A stretch of 64,000 nt of DNA from Candidatus Cloacimonadota bacterium (GTDB taxonomy: Bacteria; Cloacimonadota; Cloacimonadia; Cloacimonadales; Cloacimonadaceae). Location: positions 62,001 to 126,000 of the forward strand of contig JAJBAV010000001.1 of the NCBI GenBank assembly GCA_020532085.1. Reading direction: 5' to 3'. How positions within the stretch are numbered: position 1 is the first letter of the stretch; each line of letters opens with the position of its first letter. The notes beneath the pieces were generated by a model that ran no database searches, had not been told where the DNA came from, and was given only the letters and a program-made list of their open reading frames with translations. This document shows positions 20,851 to 62,729 of the stretch, in pieces. A program made the translations under genes and the position numbers.

Positions 20851-21260
20851 ATGTCATTCCGGGGTAGGGGCCCCGGAATCCAGGCTAATAAGATCAATTA
20901 AAACAGAGGGACAGAGACACAGAGAAATGGGAAAAGGTAGCCTCACACAAGTTTATCAGATCGCACAGATCTGAAAATAACGGGTCACAGAATAGCGCGG
21001 AATAAGGGAAAATGCATTTAGAAAAAGAGGGAAGAAGATGTATGTCATTCCGGGGTAGGGGCCCCGGAATCCTGGCTAAAAAAGTTCTATTAAAACAGAG
21101 GGCCAGAGACACAGAGAAATGGGAAAAGGTAGCCTCACACAAGTTTATCAGATCGCATAGATCTGAAAATAACGGGTCACAGAATAGCGCGGAATAAGGG
21201 AAATGCATTTAGAAAAAGAGGGGAGAAATGTATGTCATTCCGGGGTTGGGGCCCCGGAAT
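20851..21260. repeat. Tandem ~190-bp repeat, two full copies and a partial third
   Basis: Units start with ATGTCATTCCGGGG at 20851, 21042 and 21232 (spacing 191 and 190). Each full unit holds a GTCATTCC/GGAATCC palindrome, then an A-rich stretch (AAAACAGAGGGACAGAGACA), CACACAAGTTTATCAGATCG and GGGTCACAGAATAGCGCGGA. Small internal differences show independent decay. No open frame of substance is conserved across the copies. Confidence 0.9.
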
Positions 21261-21480
21261 GACATAAGGATCGGGTCTGAGGGAAAACCTGGATTCCGGG
21301 CACTCGTTCCTCGTCCCGGAATGACGTGCGCTTTGGTGCTGGGATGGTGGTTCTTCTGCTGGCGACGATGCTCTTTCCTCACTCAACACCAGCGGAGTTA
21401 CCCCCTATACCGACTTTTCCCCTCTATCCTTTGTCTCTTATAATTCGTGTTAATTTGTGAAATTTGTGGACAAACCAAAA

Positions 21481-23596: not shown

Positions 23597-24577
23597 ATGA
23601 AACTAGCAGTTGTCGGCGCCACCGGTGAAGTGGGCCGCATGATGATAACCTGTCTGGAGGAATTTGCAGTTCCCGTGGACTCCCTCAGTCTTTTCGCCTC
23701 CGCGCGTTCAGCCGGAAGCATACTCTACTACGGCGATACGGCGCTCCCGGTGCGTGAACTGGACGCCGCGGGAATGCGGGAACATTTTGATTATGTGCTC
23801 TTTTCCGCCGGCGCGGGAGTGGCCCGGGAATTCGCGCCCCTCGCGGCCGCGAGCGGTTCCGTGGTGATCGACAATTCCTCCGGATTCCGCCAGGAAACGG
23901 ATATTCCGCTGGTGGTGCCGGAGATCAACGGAGATCTGCTCAAAGGATATCAGGGCATCGTGGCCAACCCCAACTGCACCACCATCCAGATGGTGCTGCC
24001 GCTGGCGGTGCTGGACCGGCTTTTCGGGCTGCGCAAAGTGGTCGTGAGCACCTACCAGTCTGTCTCCGGCAGCGGCCACAAGGGCGTGGCCACCCTCGAG
24101 TCACAGCGCGCTGGCGCTCCCGGAAAAGGCATTTATCCCGATATCATCGACCTCAACGTGATCCCCCAGATCGGCGCCTTTGCCGACAACGGCTTTTCCC
24201 AGGAAGAGGAAAAGATCCACTTCGAGACTCGCAAAATACTCGACAACACGGAGTTGGAGGTCTGCGCCACCTGCGTGCGCGTGCCTGTGTTCCATGGCCA
24301 CAGCGAAAGCATCTATGCGGAATTCGCCTCCGGGGTCGATCTGGCCAAAGCCGCGCGGGAACTGAAACAGGCCGAGTCCATCGTCTTTGGCGAAAACACC
24401 TACCTCACCCCGCGCGATCTGGGTTCCTCGAACGACAGCCACGTCTGCCGCCTGCGCCGCGGCACCGGCCCAAACTCAGTCTGCTTCTGGAATGTGGGCC
24501 ACAACGTCCGCCTTGGCGCCGCCACCAACGCCGTGCGCATCCTGCTCAAACACGCCCAACTGGCAGGCCGGATATGA
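23597..24577 (+). CDS. asd: Aspartate-semialdehyde dehydrogenase
   Basis: 326 residues. It reduces aspartyl phosphate to aspartate semialdehyde with NADPH, at the branch to lysine, threonine and methionine. Seen: VVGATGEVGRMM at 5-16, IDNSSGFRQ, VVPEINGD, and ANPNCTTIQM with the catalytic Cys127. QSVSGSGHKG and the acceptor-binding RVPVFHGHSESIYAEF are also intact. It overlaps the M20 amidohydrolase by 4 bp (ATGA), so the two are coupled, which fits a lysine/diaminopimelate role for both. Confidence 0.95.
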   Translation: MKLAVVGATGEVGRMMITCLEEFAVPVDSLSLFASARSAGSILYYGDTALPVRELDAAGMREHFDYVLFSAGAGVAREFAPLAAASGSVVIDNSSGFRQETDIPLVVPEINGDLLKGYQGIVANPNCTTIQMVLPLAVLDRLFGLRKVVVSTYQSVSGSGHKGVATLESQRAGAPGKGIYPDIIDLNVIPQIGAFADNGFSQEEEKIHFETRKILDNTELEVCATCVRVPVFHGHSESIYAEFASGVDLAKAARELKQAESIVFGENTYLTPRDLGSSNDSHVCRLRRGTGPNSVCFWNVGHNVRLGAATNAVRILLKHAQLAGRI

Positions 24578-25671
24578 ACCTCAGCGCCATCCGCCGCGAA
24601 CTGCACCGCAACCCCGAGCTGGCCTTCCGCGAGGAAAACACCAAAAGCCTCATTCTCTCGTATTTACAAGGCATCCCCGACCTCAGGATCCACGAATTCG
24701 CCACCAACACCGGCATCCTGGTGGAATACAGCCGTGGTGAAGGTCCCTACAGGCTTTTCCGTGCGGACATGGACGCCCTGCCGATTAGCGAAAACACCGG
24801 CTGCGCTTTTTCCTCCCAAAACCCAGGCCTGATGCACGCCTGCGGCCACGATATCCACATGACGGTGCTGCTGGGCCTGGTCGCGCAGGTGGCGGCAGAG
24901 AAGATGCAGCGCAATCTGCTCTTTCTCTTCCAGCCGGCTGAAGAGGGCGAAGGCGGCGCGCAGAGCGTGATCGCGGAGGGCCTGATCCAGCGCTTCGACG
25001 TGGAGAAAGCCTTCGCGCTGCACGTGGCCAGCGGATTGCCTCTGGGAGCGGTCTCCAGCCGTCCGGGCGTGTTTTTCGGCGTGCCCCAGGAATTCGACGT
25101 GGAATTCATCGGCAAGCCGGCCCACGCGGCCTTTCCGGAAGAGGGGATCAACGCCCTGGACGCCGGCCGCGAATTCCTGCGCCTGATGGAGCCAGACATC
25201 GCCCAATTGGCACAGCGGCACCGGGTTATCTGCCACGTGGGCAAACTGGCCGCCGGAACCGTGCGCAACGTGGTGCCGCACCGCTGCAAGCTGGAAGGCA
25301 CCCAACGCAGCCTGGACAAGGCAGTGAGCCTGAAGATAAATGAGATCATCAGTCGCAATGCCGCCCTGGCCGCGGAGTCGTTGGGGACGGGCTTTCGGGT
25401 CGATTTCCTCGGAACTTACGATCCGGTGGTCAATTCCGCCCCGTTGGTCGAAGAACTAAAAACGGTTTGCGCGGAAACCGGAATCGAGTTTCGGGAGGCG
25501 GAGGTCGCCCTCACTGGCGAGGATTTCGGCTTTTTCACCTCCCTCTACCCCGGCCTGCTCTTCTGGCTGGGTTCCGGCTGCGCGGAACCTTTGCATTCCG
25601 ATAAATTTCTGCCGGACGCGGCCTGCATCGACATCGGCGTGGAAATATTTGCCGCCCTGGCCCGCCATTAA
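24574..25671 (+). CDS. M20-family amidohydrolase, possible N-acetyl-diaminopimelate deacetylase
   Basis: 365 residues of the M20D amidohydrolase/aminoacylase group. Seen: RRELHRNPELAFREENT at the N-terminus, FRADMDALPI, HACGHDIHMTVLLG with metal ligands, and LFLFQPAEEGEGGAQ with the catalytic Glu. CHVGKLAAGTVRNVVPH and LTGEDFGFF follow. Members cleave N-acyl groups from amino acids. Coupling to asd suggests the acetylase branch of diaminopimelate/lysine synthesis, but hippurate-hydrolase or other acyl-amino-acid activity cannot be excluded. Confidence 0.85.
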   Translation: MNLSAIRRELHRNPELAFREENTKSLILSYLQGIPDLRIHEFATNTGILVEYSRGEGPYRLFRADMDALPISENTGCAFSSQNPGLMHACGHDIHMTVLLGLVAQVAAEKMQRNLLFLFQPAEEGEGGAQSVIAEGLIQRFDVEKAFALHVASGLPLGAVSSRPGVFFGVPQEFDVEFIGKPAHAAFPEEGINALDAGREFLRLMEPDIAQLAQRHRVICHVGKLAAGTVRNVVPHRCKLEGTQRSLDKAVSLKINEIISRNAALAAESLGTGFRVDFLGTYDPVVNSAPLVEELKTVCAETGIEFREAEVALTGEDFGFFTSLYPGLLFWLGSGCAEPLHSDKFLPDAACIDIGVEIFAALARH

Positions 25672-25732: not shown

Positions 25733-25821
25733 GCTCCCAATATCAATACGGTATCAATACGGAATCAATACGGATTTTATCCGTATTGATTCCGTATTGA
25801 TACCGTATTGATATTGGGAGC
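25733..25821. repeat. Perfect palindrome with 43-bp arms made of 11-bp units, copy 1
   Basis: Arms 25733-25775 and 25779-25821 are exact reverse complements around a 3-base loop (TTT). Each arm carries three direct repeats of ATCAATACGG plus one base, with GCTCCCAAT at the outer end. A shorter relative is at 52421-52491. It begins 62 bp after the M20 stop codon. No T-run follows, so it is not a standard terminator. Confidence 0.95.
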
Positions 25822-25968
25822 GGGTTGAGGGGAAAGTGGGGTTGTGGCACATTTTTATGTGTGAAGAATAAAGATTTTGGCCCTCTTTCATACCGAGAGG
25901 GTGGCTCAACATTCATCCCTTGATGGGATAAAGTGTCATCCCGGGATGGGGCTTCAGCCTGGTTTTTG
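25822..25968. other. Intergenic, no gene seen
   Basis: Part of the 25672-26571 gene-free stretch. An open frame here on the minus strand is only the palindrome and REP sequence read through. A decayed GTCATCCCGG unit lies near 25936-25951. Confidence 0.6.
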
Positions 25969-26050
25969 CCGGTGGCTGAAGCCACCCGGACATCGTCTGT
26001 TTTGCTGTGCCGCTTTCTGGCACGGTGGCTGAAGCCACCGCCTTCCGTCT
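25969..26050. repeat. REP pair upstream region, unit 1
   Basis: Two imperfect hairpins, CCGGTGGCTGAAGCCACCCGG and ACGGTGGCTGAAGCCACCG, are joined by a ~35-bp spacer and end in CCTTCCGTCT. This is the same unit that flanks the transposase gene at 26488-26570 and 27072-27570. The stretch 26051-26487 after it has no gene. Decayed relatives of the GAGGGCGACAGA dispersed repeat lie near 26158-26210. Confidence 0.8.
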
Positions 26051-26487
26051 GGTTCTTTGCCTTTTGTGGATACATTGGCTGCGTACCTCGTATTGTCTGA
26101 TCAGTAAGGCTCTCATTCAAACCGAGTTGGTAGAAGTGATCAACCCGCCAGCAGCTTGGAGGGCGACAGATCATAGCACAAATCATAGCTAGGGAGCGGA
26201 GCCCCCCGTAACGAAACAAGGGACAATTAATGGAATTTTCTCCACCCCTCCCCGGAAACGTGGCACGCTTCCGGGGTGGGGTGGATTGAGCTGCAGTCTT
26301 TCGTCTGGTTTTCGCGCCAAATATGGGTAAATTGGCTGAGTCATCGCCAAACATTTGCGTTGTGGCTCTGGATGAGGATCCGAGGGTTAAAATTGACCGC
26401 AGATAGTCTTTTCCCCTGCCTGGATGGGGTTTGTTGCCAACTTGTTGACATCATTGGCGTCAGTGTGAAATCTTGAATCTCAATAAA

Positions 26488-26570
26488 GACGGAAGGCGGT
26501 GGCTTCAGCCACCGTAAACAGACAAGGCGATCCGAAAAAGACGATGTCCGGAGCTTTCAAGCTCCGGCAA
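26488..26570. repeat. REP pair, inverted orientation, next to transposase gene
   Basis: GACGGAAGGCGGTGGCTTCAGCCACCG at the left is the reverse complement of the REP ends right of the transposase gene. GACGATGTCCGGAGCTTTCAAGCTCCGG is a sequence-variant of the partner hairpin with stem compensation. It abuts the transposase stop codon. Confidence 0.8.
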
Positions 26571-26571
26571 T

Positions 26572-27048
26572 TCACTCTGCCGAATCTGGATATTTAGCCC
26601 AGGTCTCCGGCCGCAAATAAGACCCGGACTTGTCTTCAAAGCGTTTCATCTCATCTTCGAAGCTGGTCTCGCGGTGATGCTCCTCCTGGTTGAAAATATA
26701 GTTCTTGGTTTGCTCCAGTTGAGATCCACTCACGGTGTAGATCTGGTAGCCTTCCTGCCAGTTCAGTTTATGTATGTGGTTTTCATCCTGTTGGTTAAAC
26801 CAGTGGGCGCTGCCGCCCTTGATCGCCTGCACGGATTGGGACAGGGAAATGTGTCGCGGCAAAAATGCCAGGATGTGCACATGGTCCCAGACGCCGTTGA
26901 TCAGCACCGGCATGCCACTGGATTTTTTGATGATGCCGCCCATATAGGCAAACAAGGCCGGTCGTTTCGCCGGATGCAGGGTCCGGGCCCGGTTCTTGGT
27001 GGAAAAGATGAGATGATAGAGCAGGAAGCTGCTGGTTGAGCCGGACAT
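26572..27048 (-). CDS. REP-associated tyrosine transposase (RAYT, Y1/IS200-like)
   Basis: 158 residues of the Y1 transposase (HUH) family. Seen: LLYHLIFSTKNRARTL near the N-terminus, GVWDHVHILAFLP with the His-x-His metal pair at 56 and 58, WQEGYQIYTVS, and QTKNYIFNQEEHHR with the nucleophilic Tyr117. I start at ATG 27048 because GGAGG lies 5 bases upstream; the frame is open four codons further to a TTG that contains this site. RAYTs nick and join single-stranded DNA and are held to spread REP palindromes. REP units in opposite orientation flank the gene on both sides. Confidence 0.92.
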   Translation of the reverse strand: MSGSTSSFLLYHLIFSTKNRARTLHPAKRPALFAYMGGIIKKSSGMPVLINGVWDHVHILAFLPRHISLSQSVQAIKGGSAHWFNQQDENHIHKLNWQEGYQIYTVSGSQLEQTKNYIFNQEEHHRETSFEDEMKRFEDKSGSYLRPETWAKYPDSAE

Positions 27049-27071
27049 TATATCCTCCAATCGTTTTGGTG

Positions 27072-27570
27072 CCGGTGGCTAAAGCCAACCGGACATCGTC
27101 TATTTTGTTGTGCCGCTTTCTGGTACGGTGGCTGAAGCCACCGCCTTCCGTCTTGTTTTGGCGACGATCTGGCTGTGAGGTTGTAGCAACATCCATCAAG
27201 CCAATGCCGGTGGCTGAAGCCAACCGGAAATCGTCTATTTTGTTGTGCCGCTTTCTGGTACGGTGGCTGAAGCCACCGCCTTCCGTCTTGTTTTGGCGAC
27301 GATCTGGCTGTGAGGTTGTAGCAACATCCATCAAGCCAATGCCGGTGGCTGAAGCCAACCGGAAATCGTCTATTTTGTTGTGCCGCTTTCTGGTACGGTG
27401 GCTGAAGCCACCGCCTTCCGTCTTGGTTTGGCGACGATCAGCCGTGTTGCTGTAGCATCAGCCATCAGTATTTGTTTTCATTGGTGGCCACAGCCAACCG
27501 GACATCGTCTTGTTTGGCCGCCGTTTTATTGTGCGGTGGCTGAAGCCACCGCCTTCCGTCTTAATCAAGG
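27072..27570. repeat. Tandem array of 135-bp REP-containing units (3.7 copies)
   Basis: Units start at 27072, 27207, 27342 and ~27481 (spacing 135, 135 and 139). Each contains a CCGGTGGCT(G/A)AAGCCAACCGG hairpin, TGTGCCGCTTTCTGG, then CGGTGGCTGAAGCCACCG and CCTTCCGTCTT. Between copies lies GGTTGTAGCAACATCCATCA. The last copy is diverged. No gene is seen between 27049 and 27639. Confidence 0.9.
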
Positions 27571-52420: not shown

Positions 52421-52491
52421 ATCAATACGGAATAAATACGGGATCAATACGGATTTCATCCGTATTGATCCCGTATTTATTCCGTATTGAT
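52421..52491. repeat. Perfect palindrome of 11-bp units, copy 2
   Basis: Arms 52421-52454 and 52458-52491 are exact complements around TTC. Each has ATCAATACGG, ATAAATACGG and ATCAATACGG units. The outer CTCCC/GGGAG remnant matches copy 1 (25733-25821). It lies in the 291-bp gap between the HhH-barrel and the NB-ARC gene, 62 bp beyond the NB-ARC stop. The rest of the gap holds no gene. Confidence 0.95.
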
Positions 52492-62405: not shown

Positions 62406-62729
62406 ATCCGGCCAACCGCAGATGTTGGGGCGACAGAGATGCTTACCCACCGCAAAGTCCTTCCAGTCACGCCCTGAGCGCTCGCTTCCATCCCCCTCCC
62501 ACGTTCCCCGCCTGATCATCGCATCAAACGCGGCTATCATGCGGGAGGCGCGTCCGGGCCCCGGGAAATGGCCTTAATGGCCAAAGGGGCATCGTTTCGG
62601 TCCTCTGCGGGGTCCCCGGCCACTTCACCCTCATGCCAACGCATTCCGCTTCTGGGATCTACTTACCCGATTTGCAAAAGATCCCTAAAAAAGGCAGTTG
62701 GCCCCGTTTTCGTCTTGTTCAGTTCTGGT
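62406..62729. other. Intergenic between convergent genes, no gene seen
   Basis: 324 bp between the convergent CDP-alcohol transferase and hisS genes. No tRNA, terminator with a convincing T-run, or repeat family recognised above is seen. Confidence 0.5.

Follow-up and report, generated by a model that had tools for sequence, protein, structure and literature searches.

Bacterial MITEs (ERIC, Correia/NEMIS and RUP-like elements) are short, non-coding, inverted-repeat sequences, dispersed and intergenic. Direct repeats of 11 bp are found in centromeres of the ParR/parC type, which are bound by a ParR-type protein and adjoin par genes. Integron attC sites, which IntI recognises by R and L boxes in the folded single strand, were also considered for comparison, being hairpins of single-stranded DNA used for recombination. 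REPs are 20-40 bp in length and bear an unpaired GTAG or CGTC tetranucleotide at one of their ends (PMC3733652); REP, BIME and REPIN sequences are mobilised by RAYTs (PMC3733652, PMC2817692, PMC3116915), and IS elements that target REP sequences have been described (Tobes and Pareja, PMC1525189). The hairpin analyzed here lies in a stretch of 64,000 nucleotides of Cloacimonadota DNA (the window). As REP, BIME and REPIN sequences, it belongs to a set of many extragenic palindromes per genome, sorted into lineage-specific classes, without long target duplications, and serving insertion sequences as targets. It differs from REPs in size (about 89 bp, with 43-nt arms), in being symmetric, and in being built of 11-bp direct repeats. 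With MITEs it shares the short size, the inverted-repeat and non-coding nature and the dispersal in intergenic DNA, but it is made up of iterated units, not of simple terminal repeats. Only the 11-bp iteration is in common with ParR/parC-type centromeres, the hairpins being chromosomal, present in many copies and arranged as one palindrome.

The focal palindrome spans positions 25733-25821, and consists of two arms of 43 nt (25733-25775 and 25779-25821), 100% complementary, separated by a TTT loop (25776-25778), replaced by TTC/GAA in the majority of the copies residing in the same genome. Six exact ATCAATACGG units follow each other with an 11-bp period. Three are on the plus strand, unit 1 (25742-25751) being followed by spacer T, unit 2 (25753-25762) by spacer A, and unit 3 occupying 25764-25773; units 3', 2' and 1' are on the minus strand, at 25781-25790, 25792-25801 and 25803-25812. 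The left stem base GCTCCCAAT (25733-25741, plus strand) pairs with the right stem base ATTGGGAGC (25813-25821, plus strand), and is conserved and partly covarying across copies (GCTCCC/GGGAGC or GCCCCC/GGGGGC). Folded as single-stranded DNA, the hairpin has an energy of -51.8 kcal/mol, against a mean of -10.6 for shuffled sequences (z -18.7; 0 of 200 shuffles); the z value of the RNA fold, in a 181-nt context, is -13.3. The earlier note on this DNA had described six units in two arms, a 3-base loop and no mismatches, a description which is exact, and understated. Scanned for hairpins without bias, the 64-kb window returned two far outliers, none being found at the same cut-off in one shuffled 64-kb window. 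One is the focal hairpin, the other a second copy of the family at 52421-52491, which reads ATCAATACGG A ATAAATACGG G ATCAATACGG, has a TTC loop and a perfectly complementary 71-bp core. Both arms of this copy have an altered middle unit, similar to the form common in the relative G012.

With a probability of about 0.55, we regard the hairpin as a non-autonomous mobile interspersed repeat of about 90 bp, belonging to one Cloacimonadota family and endowed with iterated protein-binding sites.

The 2.81-Mb genome from which the window derives (G000) contains 121 forward and 138 reverse matches to a two-unit pattern, and none to the reversed-pattern control. Allowing for several matches per copy, this corresponds to some 65-75 interspersed copies, a figure incomplete, as are the flanks at contig ends, because MAGs are broken at repeats. 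The further copies that the earlier note had proposed to search for, and whose absence would have spoken against its reading, are therefore plentiful. A blast search of the same genome gave 65 candidate places, 40 of which were scored, and 48 copies were taken individually with their surroundings. The consensus is an 11-bp unit, ATCA[A/T]TACGG plus spacer, repeated three times per arm; the loop is GAA/TTC, and the stem base GCTCCC/GGGAGC. The 47 copies aligned have in common a 71-bp core and GCTCCCAAT/ATTGGGAGC, outside which similarity stops abruptly, flanks being unrelated beyond the stem base except for weak preferences (CC about 6 bp outside and, immediately next to the element, T[G/C], with the mirror image on the right), which extend the consensus to T[G/C]GCTCCC...GGGAGC[G/C]A. 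No conserved unpaired end tag of the GTAG or CGTC type was found in these 47 sequences. The number of units may vary, one copy (L073) having an extra unit in one arm, and copies in the relative G018 four units per arm. In most own copies unit 3' or its partner is ATCATTACGG, which introduces one conserved A:A mismatch in the innermost part of the stem. The focal copy belongs to a perfect minority, and the notion, put forward in the earlier note, that perfect identity implies recent origin has to be corrected. The focal site is not brand new, since the same place holds a differently lettered copy in a related species.

None of 47 own copies falls in a called gene, and of the 34 with fully determined contexts 12 are located between convergent, 13 between tandem and 9 between divergent genes, the remainder of the 47 lying at contig ends; genes were called with a home-made program, and these counts are hence approximate. 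The focal copy is found 61 bp past the stop codon of a plus-strand gene encoding an M20-family peptidase (24574-25671). This location, the 12 convergent contexts, the high stability of the RNA hairpin and the paired changes in the arms reported below would fit an element working at the RNA level, as a bidirectional terminator, an mRNA stabiliser or an RNase III-type hairpin at 3' ends. Yet no transcript ends in the divergent contexts, the focal stem is not followed by a T-run on either strand, as expected of intrinsic terminators, one base of the unit admits A:A and T:T mismatches, the other bases being fixed, and no Rfam family is matched at gathering score, weak microRNA-hairpin look-alikes being the only hits below it. 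An RNA-level role is improbable, and the statement of the earlier note that the hairpin does not resemble a terminator holds.

The exact two-unit pattern was monitored in 84,980 species genomes, and matches were found in Cloacimonadota only. A looser pattern (triple TACGG, one mismatch allowed) is present in 16 of 125 genomes of the phylum, nearly all belonging to the same family as the window; the single match outside the family (G084) does not rise above the scatter obtained with the reversed control, and carries no weight. The genus is very uneven in its pattern counts, many copies residing in five species and essentially none in the others. Plasmids gave no match in a distant blastn search, and viral contigs no exact unit pair. 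In a search by title and abstract of the literature outside subscription journals, no paper describing palindromic or extragenic repeats in Cloacimonadota/Cloacimonetes was retrieved, and general searches on such repeats returned only REP/REPIN, stem-loop and MITE work.

Relatives in the family have hairpins of the same architecture made up of different 11-bp units, for example TTAATCNNNNN, TTCCCNTATCA and GATATACGGGT. These hairpins emerged from an unbiased hairpin scan of sampled stretches of the relatives. Unit TTAATCAAGCG is found in G003, G004 and G020, CCTGTCATCCA in G020, GGGAGTCATCA, ATCATTACGCT and GATATACGGGT in G016, AGCATTCCCAT in G031. A TTAATC class is abundant in several species devoid of the TACGG class; both classes coexist in G008 and G020. 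Three hairpins of G017 (L279, L280 and L285) carry four differing units per arm, each made of TTAATC plus five variable bases, and their arms are perfectly matched, the changes in the variant units occurring in both arms together.

Several places are common to species with no more than about 70-88% DNA identity. The L161 site holds a copy in G000, G010 and G012, the L165 site in G000, G008 and G012, the focal site in G000 and G010, and the L069 and L076 sites are shared with G008. Positions conserved at about 70% DNA identity across species show that copies are stable over long times. The spacer letters are nevertheless typical of the species (T/A in G000, G/G in G008 and G010, A/A in G012), and the finding of the same places filled by species-typical letters indicates that copies are homogenised within each species. 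Among 46 copies, 17 of the 43 arm pairs are changed on both sides, as many as in none of 500 shuffles, and far above slid partners; the copies being related, paired changes support the maintenance of pairing, and are no proof alone. Mismatches between the arms cluster at the fifth base of the unit, which is either A or T, and this clustering suggests that the unit itself, and not the stem alone, is read.

The same data could be explained by a chromosomal site maintained by the host, with a nucleoid, segregation or regulatory protein binding the 11-bp array and selection keeping the copies, according to a logic like that of parS, matS or parC. The 11-bp helical phasing, the strong conservation of the unit with its A/T tolerance at one base, the positions conserved in distant species and the homogeneity within each species are all in line with this explanation, which is however rather unlikely: in some species of the genus another unit class is found and no match to the TACGG class, sites have been gained or lost (L092 and the focal site), and copies are placed along contigs with no evident regularity.

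As with MITEs and other mobile interspersed repeats, empty orthologous sites were found. At L092 the G002 genome lacks the element in an otherwise alignable site, the difference amounting to about 97 bp plus small flanking differences; this is the only fully clean empty site recovered, and it may reflect a loss in G002 instead of a gain in G000. At the focal place no hairpin is found in G001, G004, G006 and G008, an unrelated repeat in G002, a hairpin in G010. One clean empty site and the patchy occupancy together indicate mobility. The hairpins found in G002 at the focal and L161 sites had been considered as diverged orthologs, and turned out to be a separate, longer MITE-like repeat with GGCTCTC...GAGAGCC ends and CTCCCGCAT inside.

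At the element edges, direct repeats of at least 2 bp are not in excess. The single bases that border the element are identical, G or C, in 31 of 45 copies, and differ in 14 (p 0.017), a weak hint, as this is one of many looks; a target-site duplication of at most 1 bp sets the hairpins apart from MITEs, in which it measures several bp. In the loci read, neither hairpin ends shared with a transposase gene nor a gene-carrying element bounded by hairpins came to light, and no autonomous copy or dedicated transposase was found. A dedicated RAYT was rejected as mobiliser. Among 26 Y1_Tnp places in nine genomes, an iterated hairpin lies within about 1.5 kb in 7, always on one side; in none are there hairpins on both sides, the arrangement typical of REPtrons; moreover, the nearby Y1_Tnp enzymes belong to different subfamilies, and the clustering of repeats in intergenic DNA could account for their proximity.

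Two gene pairs adjacent in G002 (contigs C8 and C58) are split in G000, with a different hairpin beside each half (L083/L088 and L075/L079), which suggests recombination between hairpin copies or between adjacent IS copies. Split pairs, variation in unit number and the recurrence of one architecture with unrelated units would also be expected if hairpins arose passively, through slippage and template switching during replication (quasi-palindrome correction), and were spread by recombination, no specific protein being involved. This is improbable, as it leaves unexplained the discrete insertion of about 97 bp at a new place, the near-identical sequences at dispersed sites throughout a species, and the fixed 11-bp period.

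The left end (TGTCTCGTCCTAAAAAAGTTGACAC) of an insertion sequence lies beside these hairpins. The label IS3-type given to it is provisional, because the match of its first reading frame to HTH_Tnp_1 is weak and just under the cut-off (22.9 vs. 24.1 bits). Of the distinct left ends, 37 have upstream sequence of sufficient length, and 32 of these have a hairpin within 140 bp, at distances of 1-58 bp, against 2 of 600 random stretches; the left end always faces the hairpin because the search started from it. The hairpins are a target hot spot of this one IS type, the insertion of which beside them is non-random. A different IS-like end, monitored in G016, is associated with iterated hairpins in none of six cases. 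Repeated insertion at interspersed palindromes is reminiscent of the IS elements found at REPs (PMC1525189), with the difference that here one IS type adjoins hairpins of several unrelated units in 11 genomes. By inspection only, a putative right end of the IS was seen beside the hairpin in two own loci (L072 and L089). At the contig starts of these loci (positions 1-165 and 1-131, respectively), a repeated end, CAACCTTTGAGACGCTA, abuts the hairpin, one hairpin being trimmed there; CAACCTTTGAGACGCTA may be this right end.

Taken as a whole, the element is a multi-copy intergenic hairpin with a unit motif, maintained arm pairing, species-wide homogenisation, gain or loss of sites, and targeting by an IS. 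In the mobile-repeat reading, the 11-bp units, one per helical turn, would be iterated sites for a DNA-binding or strand-transfer protein; we infer such binding from periodicity and constraint. The protein may act on the duplex array, or on an extruded hairpin or cruciform, and copies would in this way be spread and homogenised. The IS3-type transposase may target the same hairpin structure, or a protein bound on it. More tentatively, the hairpins could represent a new class of mobile DNA, in which units are replaceable (at least five unrelated ones in one family), architecture and IS targeting are constant, an undescribed enzyme reading such hairpins would spread them, and the IS3-type transposase would recognise this structure and not a sequence. 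The earlier note had proposed a MITE-like or REP-like element, or a multi-site binding hairpin. Dispersal, intergenic location, the 11-bp unit motif and the empty site are in keeping with it; the REP tag and size, the flanking RAYT and the MITE target-site duplication are absent. As defining features of both REPs and classical MITEs are missing, the hairpin is placed with the interspersed palindromic repeats, which it resembles in its workings while forming a new variant.

As a rule, interspersed palindromes are short and of simple build. In the present case a fixed architecture, an 11-bp iteration in a perfect hairpin, is kept across the family, and unit sequences are swapped and homogenised species by species while an insertion sequence keeps tracking the hairpin. 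It becomes testable whether what a transposase recognises in its target is the shape of a hairpin or cruciform, or a bound partner, and not the sequence, and which enzyme moves and homogenises iterated-hairpin repeats. The hairpins can also serve as lineage markers, and probably cause contig breaks in Cloacimonadota MAGs.

Additional repeats reside in the window. The next gene downstream of the focal hairpin encodes a Y1_Tnp (IS200/RAYT-like) protein (26572-27060, minus strand), and has its own, different REP-like repeats (GGTGGCTGAAGCCACC); it is taken here as a neighbour of the hairpin, not as a demonstrated part of it. Tandem 135-bp repeats with GGTGGCTGAAGCCACC palindromes surround this gene from 25967 to 27562, and are likely a REP/RAYT island separate from the focal hairpin. 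Two shorter, GC-rich hairpins are located at 26241-26285 and 21231-21266, and similar CCCCACCCCAAAC hairpins are found in G006 (L220). The longer MITE-like repeat, an imperfect CTCCCGCAT...ATGCGGGAG hairpin often set between its GGCTCTC/GAGAGCC ends, occurs at about 62470-62590 in the window and at loci L177 and L189 in G002; counting both strands, it has 210 matches in G002, and 42 in the own genome.
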